This document shows positions 24,724 through 47,501 of a DNA stretch of 47,570 bases, in pieces. Positions within the stretch are counted from its first letter, which is position 1; every line of letters begins with the position of its first letter. Origin of the DNA: a virus; IMG/VR virus record IMGVR_UViG_3300029448_004129, positions 35,067-82,636 of that record. One strand, written 5' to 3'. A program made the translations under genes and the position numbers. The notes under the pieces are model-generated. The model was not told where the DNA came from. It did not search any database and saw nothing but the letters and a program-made list of their open reading frames with translations.

Positions 24724-24900
24724 TTACTTTTCCTTTTTCTTAGTAGCCTTCTTTTTCTTTTTGACTACTTTCTTTTTCTTCTTCTTCTTTACAATCTTTG
24801 GTTCATCTTTGTCGCCAAAGTGTTCTGCCAAATTCTTCTTTCTCTTATTTGGCATCCACAAACTATCTGTCATTGTCCACAATTTATCTAAAAATCCCAT
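24724..24900 (-). CDS. Small protein with a Lys-rich tail (58 aa)
   Basis: The N-terminus MGFLDKLWTMTDSLWMPNKR is hydrophobic and aromatic, and the C-terminal third is almost all lysine. GGAG lies 6 bases before the ATG. It is the first gene of the PAAR-gp25-gp6 operon, about 115 bases downstream of a TATAAATA late promoter at 25016-25023. A DNA- or RNA-binding role is possible from charge alone; the family is not recognised. Confidence 0.65.
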   Translation of the reverse strand: MGFLDKLWTMTDSLWMPNKRKKNLAEHFGDKDEPKIVKKKKKKKVVKKKKKATKKKEK

Positions 24901-25003: not shown

Positions 25004-25032
25004 TTGACATTCTATTATTTATAGTATATAGT
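25004..25032 (+). promoter_or_regulatory. Sigma70-type promoter facing right
   Basis: A perfect TTGACA at 25004-25009 and TATAGT at 25027-25032 with a 17-base spacer lie about 30 bases before the ATG at 25063. This looks like an early, host-polymerase promoter for the plus-strand small genes. Confidence 0.65.
25016..25023 (-). promoter_or_regulatory. Late promoter facing left (TATAAATA)
   Basis: Exact TATAAATA on the minus strand, 115 bases before the 58-residue gene that opens the PAAR operon. It lies inside the spacer of the rightward sigma70-type promoter. Confidence 0.6.
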
Positions 25033-26192: not shown

Positions 26193-26329
26193 AAAAAATT
26201 TTGAAGTGTAAGATGAAGTATGATAAACTTGCCATGAGAGAACCAAGGAATGGTCGACAAGTGTATGACCGTATCGTCTGGGAAAGACTTCGAAAAATCT
26301 TAATTCAACGATACGGTCGTTTTGATTAA
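26186..26329 (+). CDS. Small basic protein (47 aa)
   Basis: MLEKILKCKMKYDKLAMREP, then the RNGRQVYDRIVWERLRKILI segment and a basic end (QRYGRFD). It overlaps the preceding ORF by seven bases and its stop overlaps the stop of the convergent gene at 26326. Not recognised. Confidence 0.5.
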   Translation: MLEKILKCKMKYDKLAMREPRNGRQVYDRIVWERLRKILIQRYGRFD

Positions 26330-26517
26330 CCTGAGACGTCCTCAGTTGGAACTGGGATCTCTATTTCAGGTTCGCTCTCAAAAGTAATCTTTGGTACTGG
26401 TACCTCGTCAATCATCTTCGCAGCCTCTTCACCATATTGGTGACCAAGCCAGAAAGCAAATATAACTACCACTACATAGAAAAATTTTTTCCAGCGATTT
26501 TTTGTTATGTCTCTCAT
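26326..26517 (-). CDS. Single-pass membrane protein (63 aa)
   Basis: Basic N-terminus (MRDITKNRWKK), a hydrophobic helix (FFYVVVVIFAFWLGHQYG) and an acidic Pro-rich tail (VPVPKITFESEPEIEIPVP). The topology is probably a cytoplasmic start with the tail outside. It overlaps the end of the convergent plus-strand unit by four bases. A spanin or host-envelope role is possible, but no motif proves it. Confidence 0.55.
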   Translation of the reverse strand: MRDITKNRWKKFFYVVVVIFAFWLGHQYGEEAAKMIDEVPVPKITFESEPEIEIPVPTEDVSG

Positions 26518-26526
26518 TATGGTTTC

Positions 26527-26685
26527 CTATGCTTTATGTCTCTGCCATAAGTTGACAGCGATCCATGCTATAAGACCCCATTTGATTACTGCCATTACTG
26601 GTAGTATGCCTGTGAAGATACAAACTGCTAATAGTATTAGTCCGTAATCTTTCCATGCGCTTAAATCTTTGAGCCATTTATCCAT
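26527..26685 (-). CDS. Small membrane protein (52 aa)
   Basis: MDKWLKDLSAWKDYGLILLA followed by a hydrophobic stretch (CIFTGILPVMAVIKWGLIAW), ending NLWQRHKA. One or two membrane passes are likely. It lies between the porin and the previous small membrane gene, so three envelope-associated genes stand together. The size would fit a holin or antiholin, but no family match can be made by eye. Confidence 0.5.
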   Translation of the reverse strand: MDKWLKDLSAWKDYGLILLAVCIFTGILPVMAVIKWGLIAWIAVNLWQRHKA

Positions 26686-26708: not shown

Positions 26709-27566
26709 TTAGAACGTAAATTTAGCACCTACTGAATAATGTTGTAAGTCTGTGCCTGTATCTAAATCATCTTGTTGCATTTCTGCATAGACGGTTAAAT
26801 CATCTGTCATACCATGGCTAAGACCATAAGTCATATACGTTCCTGTACCTTCTTTATCTCCGTAACCAACTGTGATTGCTTTCCAACCAATCGTTGCTTC
26901 CATACCTACAAGATCCGTTGCCGCATCTTTGACGGTATAAGTTGAAGCGATAGTTAAATCACCTACAGTTGTTGAAGCACCTGCGCCCCAATAAGAGATA
27001 TCGTTCACTACGTCATCAGAATATCCTACTGCAACATCAATGCCTTGAACACTATGAGAAAGAGTACCTTCCCACATATCAATACCATCTTGTCCAGAAG
27101 AACCATCAACCATAGCCATTGCACTAAAAGTGCCGTTGTCTAATTTGATTGTGTTTGATGACCTTGCACCATAACTGAATACAGCGTTGCCTCCGTACAC
27201 TTCAAAGTTTCCAGTTTTAGAAACCCATGAGTGTGCCTGACGACCAGCAGTAATAGAAACACCATTATTCTCCACACCTACATATGCAAGTCTGGAATCT
27301 AAAGTGTCTGATCCACTATCGTCAACGTCAACGCCTACTTCCAACTTGGCAATACCTGACATGGAACTTCCTTCATCAAAACTTTCGATAACATCTATAC
27401 CTAGAATTGATCCGTTGTTCTCTAACTTGTCATGTGCCACGCCTGAAGCGTTCTCGTCATGTGACCATTTATAGTTAAAGGTACCATACGGTGTTATATC
27501 TGCCGCACTTGCCTGATAGGCGAATAGCAACATCATAGCGCCCGTAATAGTAATTAATCTTAACAT
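26709..27566 (-). CDS. Outer-membrane porin-like beta-barrel protein (285 aa)
   Basis: A clear signal peptide (MLRLITITGAMMLLFAYQAS, cleavage after the ASA at residue 21) is followed by DITPYGTFNYKWSHDENASG, the start typical of alphaproteobacterial porins. Alternating strands run through the sequence: SRLAYVGVENNGVSITAGRQ, YGARSSNTIKLDNG, VAVGYSDDVVND, ATIGWKAITVGYG. The chain ends HYSVGAKFTF, with the terminal Phe that the BAM machinery recognises. This is a complete porin in a phage. It has AAGGAG before the ATG and a TATAAATA late promoter about 65 bases upstream, so it should be made late. It could change host permeability, mask a receptor, or be carried by the virion; the sequence does not say which. 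Confidence 0.85.
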   Translation of the reverse strand: MLRLITITGAMMLLFAYQASAADITPYGTFNYKWSHDENASGVAHDKLENNGSILGIDVIESFDEGSSMSGIAKLEVGVDVDDSGSDTLDSRLAYVGVENNGVSITAGRQAHSWVSKTGNFEVYGGNAVFSYGARSSNTIKLDNGTFSAMAMVDGSSGQDGIDMWEGTLSHSVQGIDVAVGYSDDVVNDISYWGAGASTTVGDLTIASTYTVKDAATDLVGMEATIGWKAITVGYGDKEGTGTYMTYGLSHGMTDDLTVYAEMQQDDLDTGTDLQHYSVGAKFTF

Positions 27567-27594
27567 ATTTTCTCCTTGATTAATTTTTACTCAA

Positions 27595-27609
27595 CACCCA
27601 GAAAGGGTG
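27595..27609. other. Hairpin in porin leader
   Basis: CACCC-AGAAA-GGGTG is a 5-base GC stem in an AT-rich leader. It stands between the late promoter and the ribosome site of the porin gene. It has no T-tract, so it is not a classical terminator. It may control or stabilise porin mRNA. Confidence 0.4.
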
Positions 27610-27630
27610 GATTAATGTATTACCTCGATA

Positions 27631-27978
27631 TTATTTATAACTCTCATCATAAGTAATCTCGTATATAGTATCAACGTCCTCTTGGTTCTCCAGGACGTAT
27701 GCGGATATGTGTGTATATCCACGACTTTTTGCCCATATAATTCTACGACCACCTGCCTGCCACTTTCGATATTTTCCGTTCATCTCACGTACCATGATTG
27801 GATGGAGCATGCCGTTCTCGTCCATGTCCTCGAATAATTCCTTGTAGTTTATACCTTGACTATCCGCATAGACAGTCCAATCACCCGTGACACTATCCCA
27901 TTTGAACGCCAACTCGTCCATAGGTATCATCTGGTGATACTGTGGGTGTGTAATCTCTTTCGCTCTTAATTCTTTCAT
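27631..27978 (-). CDS. ParB/sulfiredoxin-like domain protein (115 aa)
   Basis: The start (ELRAKEITHPQYHQMIPMDELA) and the segment GMLHPIMVREMNGKYRKWQA followed by GGRRIIWAKSRGYTHISAYV match the ParB N-terminal or sulfiredoxin fold. In that fold a (G)xRR-type motif after a PI(I/M)V strand binds nucleotide. It is a paralog of the gene at 28528-28902. It overlaps the cupin gene upstream by one base. Function in the phage is unknown. ParB-like domains can act as nucleases, CTP-binding switches or ATP-using transferases, and nothing here picks one. Confidence 0.65.
   Translation of the reverse strand: MKELRAKEITHPQYHQMIPMDELAFKWDSVTGDWTVYADSQGINYKELFEDMDENGMLHPIMVREMNGKYRKWQAGGRRIIWAKSRGYTHISAYVLENQEDVDTIYEITYDESYK
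27632..27639 (-). promoter_or_regulatory. Late promoter for porin (TATAAATA)
   Basis: Exact TATAAATA on the minus strand, overlapping the stop of the upstream ParB-like gene and 65 bases before the porin ATG. Confidence 0.65.
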
Positions 27979-28538
27979 TACATTATATTGATTGTCAATG
28001 ATAATCTTTTCTCGTCACTATCTATAACTGCATGTGGCATACCTTTTGGTATGTGTATGGTCTCTTGTGGTTGTAAGATTATCTCCTCGTCACCGAGAAT
28101 CCATTTGGCGGTACCATAAATCTGTTTGACGATAACATTATAATCGTGTGCATGTTTATCGAATGATGGTTTACGTCCAGGCTTACTAACATAGAAGTTA
28201 CCCAAGCACTCCATGCCTGTAACGTTTATCAATTCTCTCTCCAAGAAACGTAAATCTTTTGTTAAATCAAAAACGTTAGAGAGTATGCTCGTAAAACCTC
28301 TATCATAATATTCGTGCCACTTTTCAAAGTTTAAGAAGATACCCCTCCTACTCACATCAAAGAAGTTGGAGGTCTGTGCTCCTGTCTCCGTGATTATCTC
28401 TACTGATTTTATTTCTGTGTTTTGGTAGACGAAGGGCCAACGTGTCTTAATCTTCATCAGATCAAACAACGATTGCTCGTTCAAATCTATCTCGTATAGG
28501 GCGATGTTATTTTTTAGTTCGATATAATCAATGGTCAT
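27978..28538 (-). CDS. Cupin-type putative Fe-dependent oxygenase (186 aa)
   Basis: The C-terminal part has the cupin/JmjC-like core: FDKHAHDYNVIVKQIYGTAK, then EIILQPQETIHIPKGMPHAV. Candidate metal ligands are the two His of KHAH, a following Asp and the His of MPHAV. The N-terminal 110 residues are helical and unassigned. It overlaps both neighbouring ParB-like genes (11 and 1 bases), so the three are one coupled unit. The family of two-His cupins includes protein hydroxylases (for example ribosomal oxygenases); assignment to that activity is inference. Confidence 0.65.
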   Translation of the reverse strand: MTIDYIELKNNIALYEIDLNEQSLFDLMKIKTRWPFVYQNTEIKSVEIITETGAQTSNFFDVSRRGIFLNFEKWHEYYDRGFTSILSNVFDLTKDLRFLERELINVTGMECLGNFYVSKPGRKPSFDKHAHDYNVIVKQIYGTAKWILGDEEIILQPQETIHIPKGMPHAVIDSDEKRLSLTINIM

Positions 28539-28902
28539 AATAACTGTTCGTATATTTCTGCCAATACGTCTCCGAGTTTGTGTATTGGAATACTTTTATA
28601 TATGCACTATCGCTTGGCACACAGTAACAATCAATGTGCGTGTAACCGTTCCGTCTCGCATACCACACTCGTTGATTACCCACAGCGACCTTGTTATTGT
28701 TCCAAGTGTTCACTATGATTGGGTGTGTCATGCCGTTGAGTTTTATATCCCTCATCAAACTCTCTAACCTGAAACGTTGTTCTTTTCTCTCTTTGCCACC
28801 TAGGAAGACTTTCTTCTGGTCGATTACTTGTCCGAGTTCGTCAAGTGATAACGTCTTGTGGTATTCGGGAAACTCTATGTGATTAGCAGATAAGGTCCTC
28901 AT
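28528..28902 (-). CDS. ParB/sulfiredoxin-like domain protein (124 aa)
   Basis: Paralog of the gene at 27631-27978. LSANHIEFPEYHKTLSLDEL parallels LRAKEITHPQYHQMIPMDEL, and MTHPIIVNTWNNNKVAVGNQ then RVWYARRNGYTHIDCY parallels the other copy. The motif GNQRxxYARRxGYTHI takes the place of the ParB GxRR box. A phage copying a ParB-like domain twice around a cupin is not a layout I know. Confidence 0.65.
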   Translation of the reverse strand: MRTLSANHIEFPEYHKTLSLDELGQVIDQKKVFLGGKERKEQRFRLESLMRDIKLNGMTHPIIVNTWNNNKVAVGNQRVWYARRNGYTHIDCYCVPSDSAYIKVFQYTNSETYWQKYTNSYYDH

Positions 28903-28978: not shown

Positions 28979-29650
28979 CTAGTCTAAGCCAAGTAGACTA
29001 TCACTCATCACCGTGTTGAGTACGTACCGTGGTCCCTGTGTTGGGTTACTACTCGCATGGAGTATTCTACTGTTAAACTCTATCATTGTATTCGCCTTTG
29101 GTGTGAACCTCTTTATGATGTTACCGTTATCGTTAAAGAAGAATGTATCGCCATCGACATCATTCAGGTAGTATAGGAAACTCTTGTACGTCCTACCACC
29201 CTCACCCCAAACAACGTCCTGGTGTGGCACGTGATACTCTGGTGCGTTTGGATATGGCATGAGTAAGTTTACCTTCATACGGAATACATCTAACCTGTTC
29301 GACATGGTCAGTATCAACTCATGTAGGTGTGGTATGTCCCAGTAGTACCTGTGTATCATTATCGACTGGTCGAAGTCATGTGGTTTGCCATCATTCGCAA
29401 TGCCAGTTATGCCCTTACGGTAGAAGATGGTCCTACACATCTGCGGTGTCTCTTGCCACTTCTTCTCTTCCCACTGCTTCTCCATCTCTGGGAAGACTGA
29501 CGTGCCAGGTGCATATGCGACAGAAAAATTATATGAACAGATAAACTTTTGCAACTGTGCAAACTTATTCTCATCAAAAAATTTTTCATGTACCTTTATG
29601 TCCATGTCTTTGTGGACGAAGGGGTCTTTTATCTTATCATCATCAATCAT
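28979..29650 (-). CDS. 2-oxoglutarate/Fe(II) oxygenase (223 aa)
   Basis: The Fe-binding HxD...H set is visible: VPHQDVVWGEGG (His and Asp), later SRILHASSNP (His), followed by Arg in GPRYVLNTV for 2-oxoglutarate binding. The core strands TYKSFLYYLNDVDGDTFFF and NTMIEFNSRILH fit the double-stranded beta-helix fold. The first 90 residues are extra. Such enzymes hydroxylate proteins or nucleic acids; the substrate is unknown. It lies downstream of the tRNA-like gene, with a GC hairpin between them. Confidence 0.75.
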   Translation of the reverse strand: MIDDDKIKDPFVHKDMDIKVHEKFFDENKFAQLQKFICSYNFSVAYAPGTSVFPEMEKQWEEKKWQETPQMCRTIFYRKGITGIANDGKPHDFDQSIMIHRYYWDIPHLHELILTMSNRLDVFRMKVNLLMPYPNAPEYHVPHQDVVWGEGGRTYKSFLYYLNDVDGDTFFFNDNGNIIKRFTPKANTMIEFNSRILHASSNPTQGPRYVLNTVMSDSLLGLD

Positions 29651-29668
29651 AAAAATCTTTCTGGGAGC

Positions 29669-29688
29669 GCGGCGAAGTAAGTCGCCGC
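29669..29688. other. GC-rich hairpin next to tRNA-like gene
   Basis: GCGGCGA-AGTAAG-TCGCCGC is a perfect 7-base stem with a 6-base loop in an otherwise AT-rich neighbourhood. It lies between the CCA end of the tRNA-like gene and the start of the oxygenase. No T-tract follows on either strand, so a rho-independent terminator is unlikely. A tRNA 3' processing signal or mRNA-stabilising hairpin is more likely. Confidence 0.5.
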
Positions 29689-29709
29689 AATCTTACTATT
29701 AACTCCCTA

Positions 29710-29806
29710 TGGTACGGTCTATCAGATTTGAACTGATACGATACTGAACTTATTGTCCGTTATCAAAAACTATTGTCTTCGTGTCTACCTCTTCCACCAA
29801 GACCGC
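29710..29806 (-). tRNA. tRNA-Leu-like gene, anticodon arm abnormal (possibly degenerate)
   Basis: On the minus strand the acceptor GCGGTCT pairs with AGACCGT (one G-U), followed by A and an encoded CCA. The D arm reads GTGGAAGAGGTAGACAC, as in leucine tRNAs. The T arm is a perfect ATCAG-TTCAAAT-CTGAT. A long variable arm can be drawn (GGAC-AATAA-GTTC). The anticodon arm is not normal: no 5-base stem with a 7-base loop and a leucine anticodon can be found, and the gene is about 10 bases too long (97 with CCA). GACAATA occurs twice, 20 bases apart, in this part. It may be a decayed gene, an insertion, or an RNA with another job. Confidence 0.6.
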
Positions 29807-29818
29807 ATTAGTATATAG

Positions 29819-30130
29819 TTAGACAGAAAAAGAGGTCCCACAACCACAACTCGATTGTGCCGATGGGTTGGTGAACTTGAATGTCGCACCAAAGTCGTCC
29901 TTATCATAATCTATCTCCGTGTTCATCAGGTACAACTCGAACATCTTGTGGACCAGTAACACATCATCAATTATCCTATCGTCCTTCGTCTCAACATCAT
30001 CGAAGGACCACTTGTACTCGAAACCCGCACAACCACCAGCAGCGACCTCAAGTCGCACAAATTCCTTATTGTGTTTCCTACGTAGGTCCCTCAGGTGTTC
30101 GTATGCGTTATCTGTTAGTGTTATGTTCAT
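29819..30130 (-). CDS. IscA/HesB-type iron-sulfur cluster carrier (103 aa)
   Basis: A-type carriers pass Fe-S clusters to target proteins. The three cluster cysteines are present: C34 in AAGGCAGFEYKW, and C95 and C97 in SSCGCGTSFSV. Full length for the family (about 105). It stands between oxygenase genes and may serve iron enzymes made in infection. The start lacks a ribosome site and is 5 bases from AATAAATA, another candidate for leaderless late expression. Confidence 0.9.
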   Translation of the reverse strand: MNITLTDNAYEHLRDLRRKHNKEFVRLEVAAGGCAGFEYKWSFDDVETKDDRIIDDVLLVHKMFELYLMNTEIDYDKDDFGATFKFTNPSAQSSCGCGTSFSV

Positions 30131-30135
30131 CTTAC

Positions 30136-30143
30136 TATTTATT
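30136..30143 (-). promoter_or_regulatory. Late-type promoter abutting start codon (AATAAATA)
   Basis: AATAAATAGTAAG leads straight into the IscA-type ATG, a 5-base gap with no ribosome site. It overlaps the end of the upstream oxygenase gene. Confidence 0.5.
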
Positions 30144-30738
30144 TGAAGGGGTCACCAAGTGCCCACAGTACCAGTGAATATCTAGTGCCACTCGTTAGTG
30201 GTGTTATCTGGTGTGGTATGTAGGATGGGAATACAATGATGGAACCCTGGGTACGCACCTCAGGTGGTTCGAGGTACTGTGGCTTGTTATGTTGTCCCGT
30301 ATCGAACTTGAGGTTACCACCCTCGTAGTTCGTTGGGTCCGTGAGGTTCAACGTCATGCTGAGTTTCCGTATCTTGCCTATCTTCGCCTCCACGTTGGTC
30401 ATCTCCTTCGTGTAGGCACTATGGATATCACTACCGCCATCTGAGTGCCAGTGGTAGTAACCACCAGGCTCGTAACAGGTGAACTGTAGGGACTCGTACA
30501 TGGTAACATCATAGTCCCAACCAGACATCTTGTTGGCGTCAATCACATATGGGCTGACCTGTTCGAACAACCATGGGTCCGTCAACCAGGCGACATTACT
30601 CTTCCTCACGCTCTCCTTCTTCTCACCACCATCGACGGTCGCCTCCTCTACCTTCGATCTCCCCAATTCGATAATCCGCTGACATGTGGCGACATCCAAC
30701 GCCGACTCGTATAACATATATGGATTCTTCACTATCAT
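30139..30738 (-). CDS. Prolyl-4-hydroxylase-type 2OG/Fe(II) oxygenase (199 aa)
   Basis: Fe ligands are clear: GYYHWHSDGGSD (HxD) and SYIPHQITPLTSGTRYSLVL (His, then Arg for 2-oxoglutarate). This is the layout of phage and bacterial P4H-like enzymes of about 200 residues. The start (MIVKNPYMLYESALDVATCQ) fits the family's opening helix. It overlaps the upstream oxygenase by four bases (ATGA). G+C is high here: bases 30241-30300 hold 34 G or C of 60, against 16 of 60 at 46021-46080, in the curli cluster. Confidence 0.85.
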   Translation of the reverse strand: MIVKNPYMLYESALDVATCQRIIELGRSKVEEATVDGGEKKESVRKSNVAWLTDPWLFEQVSPYVIDANKMSGWDYDVTMYESLQFTCYEPGGYYHWHSDGGSDIHSAYTKEMTNVEAKIGKIRKLSMTLNLTDPTNYEGGNLKFDTGQHNKPQYLEPPEVRTQGSIIVFPSYIPHQITPLTSGTRYSLVLWALGDPFK

Positions 30739-31346
30739 ATGACCAACTCCGATAGAGGGCTACCATGGTGGTCATCATCATCACCCATCGTACCCTTTAC
30801 GAATACGTTACCAACGATACAGTATCGACTATCATTCGACTTGTTGACACCGGAGCCATGATGTACGAAACCAGGGAAGATGATACAGTAACCATTCGAT
30901 GCCTTTATGTGGACCTCCGGGGCTGTCAGGTTGGTCAACCTCTCCACATCTGGTAACACCGTGCCGGTCGTCCACGTGGGTCGTTGATCCTTCGATATGA
31001 TGAGGTCACCACTCTCCTCTGGCACCTCCGTGTAGAGTATGCAACTGAACATGGCGTTGGCGTGTATGTGTACCTTTGAGAAGTGACCGGGGTCGTGTCG
31101 AAGACCCCAACTCGTGGTCCACCTCCACCCTATGTGTCTCTTTATGAGCAACACCTCATACATGTACTCGTTGACACATTGTGCCATCAGGTCGCTGTAG
31201 TATGGGTTGTCGTTGAGGTACTTGTTCGTCTTAGTTCTCTGTCCGTTGTTGATGGGATTCCAGTCCTCGTAGGAGTGTAGTAGGTCGTTGTTGACCTGCA
31301 ACTGTTTTGAGTATAGGGGGATCCCGAATAATTGTGTGACGTTCAT
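30735..31346 (-). CDS. Putative 2OG/Fe(II) oxygenase (203 aa)
   Basis: The start MNVTQLFGIPLYSKQLQVNN resembles the small phage oxygenases of the 2OG-FeII-Oxy type that begin with a short FG(I/T)P(I/L) segment. The Fe-binding core is FSKVHIHANAMFSCILYT, and the far His and Arg are in FPGFVHHGSGVNKSNDSRYC. WRWTTSWG near residue 74 is also a common phrase of the family. It overlaps the prolyl hydroxylase-type gene by four bases. The target is unknown. Confidence 0.75.
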   Translation of the reverse strand: MNVTQLFGIPLYSKQLQVNNDLLHSYEDWNPINNGQRTKTNKYLNDNPYYSDLMAQCVNEYMYEVLLIKRHIGWRWTTSWGLRHDPGHFSKVHIHANAMFSCILYTEVPEESGDLIISKDQRPTWTTGTVLPDVERLTNLTAPEVHIKASNGYCIIFPGFVHHGSGVNKSNDSRYCIVGNVFVKGTMGDDDDHHGSPLSELVI

Positions 31347-42121: not shown

Positions 42122-44017
42122 TTAGTTCTCCTTTTGAATTGATTGAGCATTGTGCTCATTTGCCTCGATATCGTCATGCGATTTCTCCTCTGGTTTATAT
42201 ATGGTTATGAGTTCCTCTTTACCCTTAACCTTTATCTTATCTAACTCAACTGATTTAATATCAACCAATTGTTCCATAGTATAAGACGAATATATCGTAG
42301 GTGTAACTTTACCATTCTCATCTTTGTAATTTCTTGTGGACGCTTCTAAACGTGCCGCAAGATTTACAGCGTCACCAATAACTGAATAATCTAATCGCAT
42401 TTCACTACCCATATTACCTACTATACATGTACCAGTATTAACACCTGAACCAATGTTAATATCTGGTAAACCTTTTTCTTTAAACTCTTTCTTAATTCTA
42501 TCTGTCTCTTCCGCACACTCGATACTTGTCTTAACTGCCATCTCAGCATGGTTCTCACAATCAAGTGGTGCGTTCCAGAATGCCATTATACAATCACCCA
42601 TGTACTTGTCTATTGTACCACCATTCTTCATAACTATCATACTCATTCTGTTTAGATAGTCATTGATTACATTTACAAGTCCCTCTGGATCATCTTTGTT
42701 CTTATAGTATTCTGAAATAGGTGTGAAACCAACAATGTCCATGAATAAGAAACTCATTTCTTTTCTTTCACCACCTAGTTTTAATTTACTTGGGTCTTTT
42801 ACTAATATCGCCACTTGTCGTGGATCCAAGTATTTCTCAAACTGTTTTCTTATCTGTTGTTTTGCCCTAAACTCTAATATGAAACGTAGGAATGTGGCAT
42901 GGAATCCAGTAACCCATAGTGTCAATAATATCCATGTAACATCTATCAACACCAACGTCTCAAAGGCGATTGTGAAGTAGTTACCTATACCTAATGAGGC
43001 ACCAAGTAATGCAAGTCCAATAATCCAGTAAGGTGCAAATCTTGTTAATACTATTATAACACAACCTACCAGGAATGCAAGCGCTAATTCAATAAGACTA
43101 TCATATCTCTTTATCGTCTCTCCGTCAAGTATTGTTTGTAGTGAGTTGGCACTTATAACATAGTCGTACTGTTCACCTTTTGGCGTGGCAATAACACTCG
43201 ATAGACCCTCTGCCGTCAATGCGATTATAACTGTGGTACCTGCAGCCTCATCAAAATTATCACTCGCGGCACTAATTGTCTTAAACTCTTTATTCCAACG
43301 TAACCATATTCTTGCGTTTGCGTCTGTGTTTATAGTTGCATATGCAGGCACTCTCATCGCCACAACACCTGTTTGATCTGCTTTTACTTGATATGATGGA
43401 TCGCCAACAGCAACTCTAATTGTCTCTATCGCCATGTTAGGGTAAACTTCTTCACCAATCTTCATTAACAATGGCACTCGTCTCGTAACACCATCTATCT
43501 CTGGCGCCGTATTGATAACACCTACACCAGAAGCACATTCTGCCAACTCTGGTAGTGGTCCAACCATACCAGGCCATTCGTATAAGAAGTTGAGTGGGTC
43601 ACCTATCTTTGCCACACCTCTTGGTACAGGATTAGATGTTCTTTTTTGTACAGTACCAGTCTGTGCAATTACTGTACCATATGTTAGTGTCTCACAGAAA
43701 TCCATGTCACCATCAAATCTGTCTCTTTCACTAAACAATATTGGCATTACAATTATGCCTGTCTGTGCCTGTCGTAAATCAACAATCATATCTGCCAATA
43801 CTTGTCTTGGCCAAGGCCACTGTCCGTATTTCTCAATCGCTTCTTCGTCTATTGTTATGATTGTTATGTCCTGAGAAGGTGTGACTTCTTCGTTGCCTAG
43901 CACGTAGTCAAATGATTTAAGACGTAAGATTTCTTTGAAACCTGGGTCTTGTAATCCTATATAAGTCAACAATACCAACGTAATAAAGGCAGTTGACCAG
44001 TGGGTCAAAAACTTCAT
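42122..44017 (-). CDS. CHASE2-class III adenylate/guanylate cyclase (631 aa)
   Basis: Layout: membrane helix (about 8-22), CHASE2 sensor outside the membrane (about 30-300, with YGQWPWPRQVLADMIVDLRQ), three membrane helices (about 307-378), a linker, and a class III cyclase (about 418-608). The cyclase site is complete: metal Asp 427 (FMDIVGF) and Asp 475 (KYMGD), base-binding Lys 471, Ser 545 where bacterial type IIIb enzymes have Thr, and Asn 552/Arg 556 (VNLAARLE). It should make cAMP. CHASE2 cyclases in bacteria are often neighbours of FecR-domain proteins, as here. It lies ten bases after the curlin-like gene. A full, apparently intact membrane cyclase in a phage is remarkable. Confidence 0.92.
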   Translation of the reverse strand: MKFLTHWSTAFITLVLLTYIGLQDPGFKEILRLKSFDYVLGNEEVTPSQDITIITIDEEAIEKYGQWPWPRQVLADMIVDLRQAQTGIIVMPILFSERDRFDGDMDFCETLTYGTVIAQTGTVQKRTSNPVPRGVAKIGDPLNFLYEWPGMVGPLPELAECASGVGVINTAPEIDGVTRRVPLLMKIGEEVYPNMAIETIRVAVGDPSYQVKADQTGVVAMRVPAYATINTDANARIWLRWNKEFKTISAASDNFDEAAGTTVIIALTAEGLSSVIATPKGEQYDYVISANSLQTILDGETIKRYDSLIELALAFLVGCVIIVLTRFAPYWIIGLALLGASLGIGNYFTIAFETLVLIDVTWILLTLWVTGFHATFLRFILEFRAKQQIRKQFEKYLDPRQVAILVKDPSKLKLGGERKEMSFLFMDIVGFTPISEYYKNKDDPEGLVNVINDYLNRMSMIVMKNGGTIDKYMGDCIMAFWNAPLDCENHAEMAVKTSIECAEETDRIKKEFKEKGLPDINIGSGVNTGTCIVGNMGSEMRLDYSVIGDAVNLAARLEASTRNYKDENGKVTPTIYSSYTMEQLVDIKSVELDKIKVKGKEELITIYKPEEKSHDDIEANEHNAQSIQKEN

Positions 44018-44027
44018 ATAATACTAT

Positions 44028-44381
44028 TTAGTTTTGATTAACTGTTATGGTGCAAAATGTATGACCACACCATAGTGTGTTCGAATAAGATTTGTTATTA
44101 CCCGTTTGGTTGAAATACATTGATGAATTATTACTTGTTCTACCATCGACATTTACATCAAGTGAATTACCATCACCTATTTGATTTAACTGTATAATGA
44201 ATCCATCCATACTCACTATATCAAAATCAATGACATTATTCTCGCCATCTTGTACTATGTCTAAATCACCACCGTCTGTTTGATTGTCTATTGTTAGTGT
44301 TAGATCATTTGCCAGTATATCACTTGTCCAACAAGAGAATAGAAGATACACCAGAATACCAATTATTAAATATCTTATCAT
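44028..44381 (-). CDS. Curlin-like secreted repeat protein (117 aa)
   Basis: Signal peptide (MIRYLIIGILVYLLFSCWTS, end DILAND) then curlin-type strands with the G-x-x-N and Q-x-G pattern: IVQDGENNVIDFDI, FIIQLNQIGDGNSLDVNV, MYFNQTGNNKSYSN. It ends CTITVNQN. Cys 105 and 110 (CGHTFC) frame a turn. Curlin repeats form amyloid beta-solenoids on the cell surface and leave through CsgG. It is short and may be a nucleator or cap. The ATG has no ribosome site; GATAAATA ends five bases upstream. Confidence 0.75.
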   Translation of the reverse strand: MIRYLIIGILVYLLFSCWTSDILANDLTLTIDNQTDGGDLDIVQDGENNVIDFDIVSMDGFIIQLNQIGDGNSLDVNVDGRTSNNSSMYFNQTGNNKSYSNTLWCGHTFCTITVNQN

Positions 44382-44386
44382 GCTAT

Positions 44387-44394
44387 TATTTATC
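44387..44394 (-). promoter_or_regulatory. Late promoter abutting start codon (GATAAATA)
   Basis: GATAAATAATAGC runs into the ATG of the 117-residue curlin-like gene with a 5-base gap and no ribosome site. It drives a curlin-cyclase unit late in infection. Confidence 0.55.
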
Positions 44395-45315
44395 TTAGTA
44401 TTGTGTTACGGAGACAGCACAACCACCAACAGTTTGGCAATTTTGATTTAGTGTATATGATTGGGCACTCGTACTCTGATTTGATCCTTGTTGTAAATTA
44501 AAATCTGTACCATAACTTCCACCTAGTGTTATGTTAGCAGTATGTTGCCAGTTTTTCTTCTGGTCTATATCAACGTTGTTATCGTCATTATTGAGTGTGA
44601 GTGTTAACTCCTTACCAGAGTTATGTTCTTGTATGATATGGATATCGTTATCGTCTGAATATACATTGATGTCCATATCATGTCCAGATGTGTTGTTACT
44701 GGATCGTTGAGATAACATGATATCATTTCTATCACCAGTTACTCGTAAGTCCATACTATGACCACCTATTTCTAAGTTGTCATAACTAAAATTACCATTC
44801 CCATCTATTTTATAACCTTGACCCATTTTGATATTATTGTTATTACCTTGATAAACATTTAGTATCATGTGGTCTTGGTTACATGATGTGGCTGAACATT
44901 GTTGTTTCGCAATAACAGAATTATCATCATAATCTATCTCTAAATCCATGATAGCGTTATTGTGTATCTGTAGGGCGTCAAAATTATTATTGTCACCATG
45001 ATTGTCTAGGTACATTGTATTACCATCACCAGTTTGTACTGCGGTCATTGTACTTGATGTTTGATTATCAGAACCGTAATAGTGTTTGTATAGACCTATC
45101 TTATTATTATTACCAGTCTGTGTAAAATTAATCGTTTGATTTTTACCATACAATGTGGCAGGTGATGCTGCCGTACTCTTTGTAGATATCCTATTATTCT
45201 GACCGTCTTGCGTGATGGTTACCGTAACGTTAGTACCAACTTGACCTATGTAGATTTCATTGGTATAACCAGGGCTTGTCCAGATTAGAATGCTTATTAT
45301 CAGTATTCTTATCAT
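44395..45315 (-). CDS. Curlin-like secreted repeat protein (306 aa)
   Basis: Signal peptide (MIRILIISILIWTSPGYTNE), then about ten curlin-like repeats: VTITQDGQNNRIST, INFTQTGNNNKIGL, MTAVQTGDGNTMYL, NHGDNNNFDALQI, NVYQGNNNNIKMG, LRVTGDRNDIML, INVYSDDNDIHI, LTLNNDDNNVDIDQ, FNLQQGSNQSTS. N, D, Q and G dominate. Two Cys pairs (140/145, 293/299) stand in turns. The repeats are longer and less even than in E. coli CsgA (about 22 residues each). It has only a weak GAAAAG site before ATG. Confidence 0.8.
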   Translation of the reverse strand: MIRILIISILIWTSPGYTNEIYIGQVGTNVTVTITQDGQNNRISTKSTAASPATLYGKNQTINFTQTGNNNKIGLYKHYYGSDNQTSSTMTAVQTGDGNTMYLDNHGDNNNFDALQIHNNAIMDLEIDYDDNSVIAKQQCSATSCNQDHMILNVYQGNNNNIKMGQGYKIDGNGNFSYDNLEIGGHSMDLRVTGDRNDIMLSQRSSNNTSGHDMDINVYSDDNDIHIIQEHNSGKELTLTLNNDDNNVDIDQKKNWQHTANITLGGSYGTDFNLQQGSNQSTSAQSYTLNQNCQTVGGCAVSVTQY

Positions 45316-45356
45316 CTTTTCTATCGTACTTGGTTTTATCCTTAACGACCCTCTTT

Positions 45357-45728
45357 CTATATTTTGGTGTTCTCAGGTCTTTGGCTATTGGGTTCTGTTT
45401 CTTCATTTTTTTTCTTCGTAATCTTTTTCATCTTATCAATATATCTACGATATACTGCCGCCTCTGCCGTCTTACCCATAACTCTGGCACGTTGCTCCAT
45501 GGCAATCGCAGCCTGTATCTTATGAGCGTGTGTCTTACCACTGCCTTCTATCTTCTTTACACTTGCCTCTGCGGTCTTAACATCTTTGAACCCAAGACCT
45601 TTTATCGTGCCTTTTGGATTCTCGTCTGTGTATAAGTCACTATGTTTTTTACTACCTGCAGGCTGACCTTTCTTTCTAGGTATTCTTGGCGCCTCGATAA
45701 ATTCTTTAAACTTTAATATATCCCACAT
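45357..45728 (-). CDS. Lys-rich conserved protein of marine phages (123 aa)
   Basis: The core KKHSDLYTDENPKGTIKGLG, then FKDVKTAEASVKKIEGSGKT and HAHKIQAAIAMEQRARVMGK, with AVYRRYIDKMKK, is a known small domain in marine phages and large viruses (I recall a DUF5872-type name, not sure). It binds nothing that can be read from sequence. Its ATG overlaps the FecR stop as TAATG, so the two are translated together. Its place between secreted amyloid genes is odd, since it looks cytoplasmic. Confidence 0.7.
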   Translation of the reverse strand: MWDILKFKEFIEAPRIPRKKGQPAGSKKHSDLYTDENPKGTIKGLGFKDVKTAEASVKKIEGSGKTHAHKIQAAIAMEQRARVMGKTAEAAVYRRYIDKMKKITKKKNEETEPNSQRPENTKI

Positions 45729-46849
45729 TATTGTAACTGTTTTATTGTTATTGCGTTATCCTGTCCACCTAGTTCAAAATCATACATTTCAAACTCGTCT
45801 TGTATTATATTTAGTATATATCCATACTCTTTGTCAAGTCTTAATTCTATATATGCCCCACCAGCGTCTTCTCGTATCCATACCCATTGTGGATCCTCAT
45901 CTAATATAATGACACCTGTTACTGGATCTTTACCTAATCGTATTCCGTCTACTGATTTTTGTTTATCAAATTCATTTCTCATTTGTTTGGCAAGTTCTTC
46001 ATTGATTTGTGCTAGTATGTCTGCCAAAAAATTTTGTTGTAAGAAATCTATGTCTAAACCAGTTACATATAAATCTTCTTCTTCCTCTAAGTAGTCAACC
46101 TCTAAATCATCAAATTGTAAAAAGTCTAGGTCTAATGCGTCTGAAACTTCTTTTAATTTATCCTGATAATTTTCTTCCTCTAGTTTTTCTGGTTTTGCAA
46201 CGATTAACATATTATTAATCATATCTAATTCTAAGTCTAATTTTACAGGTGGTGATGGTGGACTCTCTGGCACGTTTACCTGTGTCGCTTGAAATGCCTG
46301 ATTGAGTATAACTTGTCCTGCACCACTTTCAACACTAATCTCACCAACTAAACAATTACCCTTTACATCACAACTTGGTAATAATATTATCGTACTACCA
46401 CCTAGTTCATCTATCGTCATAGAAAAATCTGTGCCCCTAACACCTATTGTTGCCGTGGGTGTTGTAATCGTTATATCTTGTCTGGAAGTTTTAGCAATTT
46501 GTCCTGACGCATATCTTATTGTGCCAAGTTTTGCTGATAGATTTAATTTACCTTTTTTTGTGTTAGGGTCATATACAAATTCATCTATAACTAATTTACT
46601 GTGTTGGGTTACATCTACCCTGGTATCATCTATGAATAGAATACCAACTTTACCATTACCAGTCTTTACAGTATCAAACTGTTCTACTTCTAATTCTTCT
46701 TGGATTGTTATATCTGTTTTATCACGGTCGATAACACCGTTACCTTCTAGTTGGTCAACGTTTCCTATGCTACCCCATAAAGAGGTAGCACAGAATATTA
46801 TTAATAATATTAAAAGTCCTCTAATCGTCCTGTGATATGTCAATATCAT
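45728..46849 (-). CDS. FecR-domain secreted protein (373 aa)
   Basis: After a signal or anchor helix (GLLILLIIFCATSLWGS) comes the FecR beta-domain: GNGKVGILFIDDTRVDVTQH, LVIDEFVYDPNTKKGKLNL, LGTIRYASGQIAK, ITTPTATIGVRGTDFS. The IGVRGTDF end is diagnostic. The C-terminal half is acidic and ends FELGGQDNAITIKQLQ, which looks like one curlin strand. I start at ATG 46849 because AGGTGA stands five bases before it; a GTG nine bases earlier is less good. In bacteria such proteins stand next to CHASE2 cyclases. It overlaps the previous curlin-like gene. Confidence 0.88.
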   Translation of the reverse strand: MILTYHRTIRGLLILLIIFCATSLWGSIGNVDQLEGNGVIDRDKTDITIQEELEVEQFDTVKTGNGKVGILFIDDTRVDVTQHSKLVIDEFVYDPNTKKGKLNLSAKLGTIRYASGQIAKTSRQDITITTPTATIGVRGTDFSMTIDELGGSTIILLPSCDVKGNCLVGEISVESGAGQVILNQAFQATQVNVPESPPSPPVKLDLELDMINNMLIVAKPEKLEEENYQDKLKEVSDALDLDFLQFDDLEVDYLEEEEDLYVTGLDIDFLQQNFLADILAQINEELAKQMRNEFDKQKSVDGIRLGKDPVTGVIILDEDPQWVWIREDAGGAYIELRLDKEYGYILNIIQDEFEMYDFELGGQDNAITIKQLQ

Positions 46850-47501
46850 GGTTGTCACCTACTGTTGTCAAATTGATTATGTTATCATACAAACCAGATT
46901 GTGTTATATCTACATCAGCGATTGATCCCGTATGGGAATGGACTAAGGTGTGTCCGTTAACATCACCATTACCATTTATATCAATTAAATAATTATTTGT
47001 ATCACCATTTACGGTCAACGTTAATATGGCACTCGTACCATCTATAGTAGCAGCAACAACGTTACTATCACTACCAGAGGCACCAGTTATACTTACAGTT
47101 GCGTTTGCCGCGTCTGCTGTCTCACCAATATCAATATCAATATCGTTACTATTACCTACCCATACAATGGAGGCTGTAGCAGTAGCACATGAGGATCCTG
47201 TCCCTGCGCTGTCACAATTGAAATCAATATCGTTTGAGTTACCAGTCGTACTAAACGTACCTGTGAAAGTTGCACCGTTTACATCAAACTTTAAAACGTT
47301 ACTATTACCAACCTGATCAATGTCGATAGTGGTAGTAGCACCAATCACGCTTGAAGCGGTTGTACTATTACCTACAGTATTGTTTTGTCCGTCTTGGGTA
47401 ATGTCGAGGTCAAGCGTTGCACCAGATTGTGTCACATAGATATCATTCGCACTTACCGGTAGTGCCAACAACATTACTATTACGATTAATTTAGCGTACA
47501 T
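46821..47501 (-). CDS. Curlin-like secreted repeat protein (226 aa)
   Basis: Signal peptide (MYAKLIVIVMLLALPVSAND), then LDITQDGQNNTVGN, IDIDQVGNSNVLKFDV, TTGNSNDIDFN, IVWVGNSNDIDIDI, TVNGDTNNYLIDIN, DITQSGLYDNIINL and TVGDNHDIDISQ: seven to eight curlin-like strand-turn units. Cys 96 and 105 frame a loop (CDSAGTGSSC). GGAG precedes the ATG and lies in the stop of the CsgG-like gene. It is the first curlin gene after the pore gene. Confidence 0.8.
   Translation of the reverse strand: MYAKLIVIVMLLALPVSANDIYVTQSGATLDLDITQDGQNNTVGNSTTASSVIGATTTIDIDQVGNSNVLKFDVNGATFTGTFSTTGNSNDIDFNCDSAGTGSSCATATASIVWVGNSNDIDIDIGETADAANATVSITGASGSDSNVVAATIDGTSAILTLTVNGDTNNYLIDINGNGDVNGHTLVHSHTGSIADVDITQSGLYDNIINLTTVGDNHDIDISQDD

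Follow-up and report, generated by a model that had tools for sequence, protein, structure and literature searches.

A putative outer-membrane porin gene behind a T4-type late promoter in phages related to Pelagibacter phage HTVC008M

General porins of Gram-negative bacteria, among them OmpU and OmpT of V. cholerae, OmpF/OmpC and the R. blastica porin, carry a signal peptide, fold into a 16-strand barrel with loop L3 between strands 5 and 6 and end in phenylalanine, and all these features recur in the phage protein described below. Porins encoded by phages are already known as a kind. The temperate coliphage porins PA-2 Lc and NmpC are reportedly phage-encoded, placed in the host outer membrane and expressed from prophages during lysogeny. 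In phages of oxygen-minimum zones, a viral OmpL-like porin described as of Bacteroidetes origin lies next to glnK-amtB (PMC8115048), and the genome of Pelagibacter phage HTVC008M contains a gene annotated as ‘outer membrane porin’ (I899_gp042; YP_007517908.1). Other proteins named phage porins are included in the viral structure library. Our literature search found no discussion of a porin in pelagiphages or HTVC008M, and the word ‘porin’ is absent from the paper on 31 pelagimyophages (PMC7029224). Few cells on Earth are as abundant as SAR11 bacteria, and a late phage porin would give direct access to the question of how the outer membrane of a cell dependent on nutrient uptake is altered by a lytic virus; expression and timing are testable in the cultured phage-host pair of HTVC008M and strain HTCC1062.

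The DNA analysed here, a stretch of 47,570 nucleotides referred to as the window, belongs to a virus record of 82,636 bases and contains a predicted porin gene (Table 1). HTVC008M is the closest annotated record. Its gp042 is 74.7% identical to the window porin over the full length, and it shares the ParB-like gene upstream, the homologues of sm52 and sm63 downstream, the baseplate genes beyond, the type of late promoter and a hairpin in the leader, so that the two loci differ only by sequence divergence and not in kind. Shared sequence and gene order around the porin place the window among the HTVC008M-type pelagimyophages. The window porin is phage-encoded like PA-2 Lc and NmpC, but its gene has baseplate genes as neighbours and is preceded by a late promoter; the HTVC008M annotation lists no integrase. 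The OmpL-like porin, compared by description only, is also encoded by a phage and adjoins a nutrient uptake gene, but its genomic surroundings differ. From the general porins of Gram-negative bacteria the window porin differs in being encoded by a phage and placed behind a phage late promoter, in an identity of ca. 20% or less to the solved structures, and in short, conserved and acidic outer loops.

Table 1. Features of the porin locus; positions refer to the window, except for the last line, which gives positions in other viral loci.
Feature	Position	Strand	Remarks
Upstream gene	27631-27978	(-)	ParB_N-like, 115 aa; end overlaps late promoter; borders porin slot in relatives
T4-type late promoter TATAAATA	27632-27639	(-)	Perfect word; overlaps 3' end of upstream gene
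Hairpin in 5' leader of porin mRNA	27595-27609	(-)	CACCC-TTTCT-GGGTG; recurrence and covariation
Ribosome binding site AAGGAG	27572-27577	(-)	5 nt before ATG; leader ...ATCAAGGAGAAAAT ATG
Porin gene	26709-27566	(-)	285 aa including predicted signal peptide (residues ~1-21); Porin_4 match, AlphaFold2 model, fold search
sm52	26527-26685	(-)	52 aa, two hydrophobic segments; 23 nt after porin
sm63	26326-26517	(-)	63 aa, one N-terminal hydrophobic segment, acidic Pro-rich tail; 9 nt after sm52; operon end
27-aa peptide in porin slot	L143:3372, L155:3039, L168:1628, L162:6780, L173:96, L176:382		Behind same promoter region

An initial annotation, made from the letters of the DNA alone, had read positions 26709-27639 as a late-promoter gene by which the phage encodes a full outer-membrane porin; this span corresponds exactly to the open reading frame plus the promoter, and family assignment, modelled fold, promoter and synteny support the reading. 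As conceivable roles the annotation had listed a masked or replaced host receptor, a change in nutrient uptake and a weakened outer membrane. The encoded protein begins with MLRLITITGAMMLLFAYQASA–AD and ends in VGAKFTF. The signal peptide claimed in the annotation is recognizable as a hydrophobic N-terminal helix (residues 2-21 in the model) with an AxA-type cleavage site, assigned by eye, and is retained among the relatives. The terminal phenylalanine, also part of the original description, and an intact frame are present in 56 of 57 relatives checked, the remaining one being truncated or shifted close to the end of the frame; the loss of frame in other isolates that the annotation had named as counter-evidence is thus not what the relatives display. 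Residues 10-281 match the Pfam family PF13609 (Porin_4) with an E-value of 6.9e-13 (49.5 bits versus a cutoff of 27), this family is also matched by 23 of 24 diverse relatives, and pairwise dN/dS values of 0.08-0.23 among the relatives indicate purifying selection. A chance open reading frame was rejected on the basis of the Porin_4 match, the purifying selection and the intact frames of the relatives. PHROGs and NCBIfam contain no family for the porin, and the Pfam family of cyanophage outer membrane proteins (PF24653, Phage_OMP) is matched by one of the 24 relatives (E = 0.0098) and not by the window porin.

The fold was settled by a structural search, where searches of the PDB by sequence (chance matches to antibodies only) and by profile (none) had failed. 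An AlphaFold2 model built with 24 aligned relatives has a mean pLDDT of 81.3 and a pTM of 0.71, and its best matches in the PDB are all classical 16-strand porins, namely OmpU and OmpT of V. cholerae, Omp32, PorB, OmpF and their kin. Superposition with OmpT-deltaL8 aligned 253 residues with an rmsd of 2.3 and a Z-score of 25.8 (OmpU: Z 25.5); altogether the OmpT/OmpU alignments cover 253-257 of the 264 residues of the mature protein (rmsd 2.3-2.6, Z 25-26). The modelled barrel, when residues 44-50 are taken as part of loop 1, consists of 16 strands with a 28-residue L3 (110-137) after strand 5, which conforms to the classical plan of a general porin and bears out the barrel strands postulated from the sequence.

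Relatives of the porin are encoded in 128 viral stretches detected in a scan of IMG/VR, where they are located between phage structural genes, and they form two old clades with identities of 50-92%. In a phage collection searched at E 1e-3, HTVC008M provided the only relative; none was found on plasmids, nor when 84,980 bacterial and archaeal genomes were scanned twice with short peptide patterns, a procedure of limited reach. These data bear on the possibility that the gene is a recently captured host gene useless to the phage, or a contaminant of the assembly, as might be suspected given the abundance of porins in bacterial DNA. However, the same locus recurs in dozens of contigs and in the cultured HTVC008M and is split into the two old clades, the coding sequence is under the selection described above and has a late promoter and leader of its own, and the bacterial genomes and plasmids scanned yielded no close relative. 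Synteny and selection refute cargo or contamination in practice, and we consider it highly improbable; the break to host DNA envisaged as a caveat in the initial annotation was rejected since the synteny is kept in HTVC008M and the dozens of contigs. On the basis of the predicted protein and its model, we propose that T4-like myophages infecting SAR11 own, in this gene, a functional porin for general diffusion.

The predicted late promoter and ribosome binding site of the porin gene are both present, the former as a perfect word and the latter as a strong site 5 nt before the ATG (Table 1), with a leader of ca. 60 nt downstream of the promoter. The window contains eight copies of TATAAATA, all on the (-) strand, compared to a two-strand expectation of 4.95 ± 2.21; this count by itself is weak evidence. 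Seven of the eight copies sit a short distance before the start of an open reading frame. A copy at 25016-25023(-) has no gene start close behind and is followed by an AT-rich inverted repeat. The promoter is recurrent in front of the porin: among 55 relatives with enough upstream sequence, TATAAATA is present in 40 within about 100 nt of the start and TATGAATA in 12, together 52 of 55. The same virus record encodes a homologue of the late sigma factor (G000:17114-17653; 76% identical to HTVC008M gp099, E 1.8e-83), and the annotation of HTVC008M includes late sigma and late promoter factors. Both attributes of a T4-type late gene, a late promoter a short way ahead of the start and a late sigma factor encoded by the phage, are thus found, and late expression of the porin, as predicted from these signals, appears well supported.

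Between promoter and ribosome binding site, the leaders of the near clade contain a hairpin with a 5-bp stem and a 5-nt loop. The stem reads CACCC/GGGTG in the window and AACCC/GGGTT or ATCCC/GGGAT in other members of the near clade. In 19 distinct leaders 96.3% of the cells are paired, compared to 19-53% in slid controls, and changes on both sides occur in 14 cells versus a mean of 6.0 in shuffled sets, a value reached in none of 500 shuffles; this count includes three pairs of a second stem lacking in the window itself, and as the leaders are related sequences it is not to be read as a probability. The support for the hairpin lies in this covariation. An unusually stable leader was rejected on the basis of z-scores between -1.6 and 0.6. 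A terminator was likewise rejected, since the hairpin sits after the promoter and no U run follows. No Rfam family matched the leader near any gathering score. Elsewhere in the loci scanned, the same type of stem turned up nowhere but within a single gp5-like coding stretch (L040/L089, which are the same contig, and L055). The mRNA of E. coli ompA has a stabilising 5' stem, and by analogy the simplest reading is that the leader hairpin may play the same part.

The porin is the first gene of a three-gene membrane operon behind the late promoter, followed by sm52 and sm63, which are the two small membrane protein genes noted in the initial annotation and both lie just downstream. In the near clade, the order is a gp5-like gene, variable genes, the ParB-like gene, porin, sm52, sm63 and then the gp25 and gp6 baseplate genes. 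Next to the slot in this clade there is also a second short ParB_N-like protein, which is encoded in the window at 28528-28902(-) and is similar to the upstream gene product; neither has an obvious second domain. Beyond it, the region 28979-31346(-) encodes three 2OG-Fe(II) oxygenase-like proteins and an IscA-like Fe-S protein; for 28979-29650 the PHROGs family name ‘DNA endonuclease V’ looks doubtful against the Pfam match 2OG-FeII_Oxy_3. On the other side, a 58-aa protein with an almost pure lysine tail (24724-24900(-)) occupies a constant place in most relatives, ahead of the PAAR-like and gp25 genes. The porin is directly followed by sm52 in 52 of 74 distinct loci, and the 22 loci without it all have porins of at most 55% identity. 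The distant clade (50-56% identity) has its porin between the same structural genes and, except in a few loci, is devoid of sm52 and sm63.

Some relatives possess the ParB-like gene, the promoter region, sm52 and sm63 with no porin in between. Their slot holds an open reading frame for 27 residues with one hydrophobic helix, e.g. MLEVVLMAYAITIIGGLIIQSTGLSSI, and is devoid of the porin leader hairpin. A search started from sm52 instead of the porin retrieved 38 loci, of which 31 have the porin (29 by script and two read from the script output) and seven the 27-aa peptide in the slot; no locus among those examined has both. Since the slot holds the peptide instead in some relatives, the porin is an optional cassette, an accessory gene of the late membrane operon. 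As far as our searches reach, neither the hairpin in the leader nor the slot shared by porin and peptide seems to have been described before, and phages with and without porin offer a natural comparison. We know of no lytic phage in which a porin is used as an interchangeable late envelope tool. Tentatively, the pelagimyophages might own a late envelope operon with an exchangeable first position, occupied by a porin with structured leader or by the 27-aa peptide and in either case continued by sm52 and sm63, so that porin and peptide would be two ways of accomplishing a single late task at the envelope, be it release, exclusion or permeability.

The composition of the operon raises the question of late help in lysis, whereby the porin and the two small inner-membrane proteins would weaken the envelope for release. 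The late promoter, the two-segment and one-segment membrane proteins encoded behind the porin and the one-helix peptide as alternative occupant, all membrane-acting by appearance, are consistent with such a function. However, no holin or spanin family of Pfam, PHROGs or NCBIfam is matched by sm52 or sm63, HTVC008M has its two endolysin genes far from the porin, and the porin itself has kept the form of an ordinary barrel, L3 included, so that we regard help in lysis as rather unlikely.

A further possible function is surface remodelling. The phage porin might replace or dilute host outer-membrane proteins, so that neither the infected cell nor its debris would still bind released progeny or competing phages. 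The late timing would suit a protection of progeny, and PA-2 Lc and NmpC are said to provide a precedent; the T4 exclusion genes imm and sp, however, are early and not late genes. The surface of the porin also argues against exclusion. Outer loops other than L3 are short, with 13 acidic residues and one basic residue, and with strand and loop limits taken from the model, their mean entropy in the near clade (0.33) is below that of the strands (0.57) and of the periplasmic turns (0.83). The conserved loops give no support for receptor diversification, and it is suggestive only that the surface is unlike one under diversifying selection or in an arms race, short turns being also constrained by structure alone. 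In favour of exclusion, other surface-altering genes are present in these phages, coding for O-chain enzymes and curli components (PMC7029224). Altogether, exclusion seems possible but doubtful, though less so than help in lysis; both are kept alive by the operon partners and by the peptide alternative.

We put first, at about even odds against these rivals, a late remodelling of the host outer membrane which probably raises its permeability for small solutes. This preference is based on the function of general porins, on a PstS-like gene in two relatives and on the other changes of the envelope made by these phages. In this scenario, the phage late sigma factor would drive the porin operon late in infection, the porin would be exported by Sec, and the BAM machinery of the host would insert it into the outer membrane of the SAR11 cell, where it would form channels, probably trimeric and probably cation-preferring. 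The changed permeability might keep small solutes reaching the infected cell, and the porin would then be one part of a wider envelope remodelling, to which the curli operon and the O-chain enzyme genes carried by pelagimyophages (PMC7029224) may belong. The PstS-like gene, assigned by eye to a phosphate-binding protein, follows the porin at L053:3874-4815 and L106:1678-2607, both of the distant clade, and was rejected as a general feature, being restricted to these two loci. Phosphate is not favoured as a substrate because the mature porin is strongly acidic (39 Asp and Glu versus 12 Lys and Arg). Further points count against a role in permeability: diffusion, not the number of porins, is taken as limiting in a model of SAR11-type uptake (PMC8168909), and the 27-aa membrane peptide, unable to be a porin, hints as alternative occupant at a membrane role other than uptake.

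Separately from the porin locus, the window contains a curli-like block at 42122-47501(-) with two secreted proteins recognized by eye as curlin-repeat-like (44395-45315 and 46821-47501), a protein with CHASE2 and guanylate/adenylate cyclase domains (42122-44017) and a FecR-domain protein (45728-46858); a similar block is present in HTVC008M.
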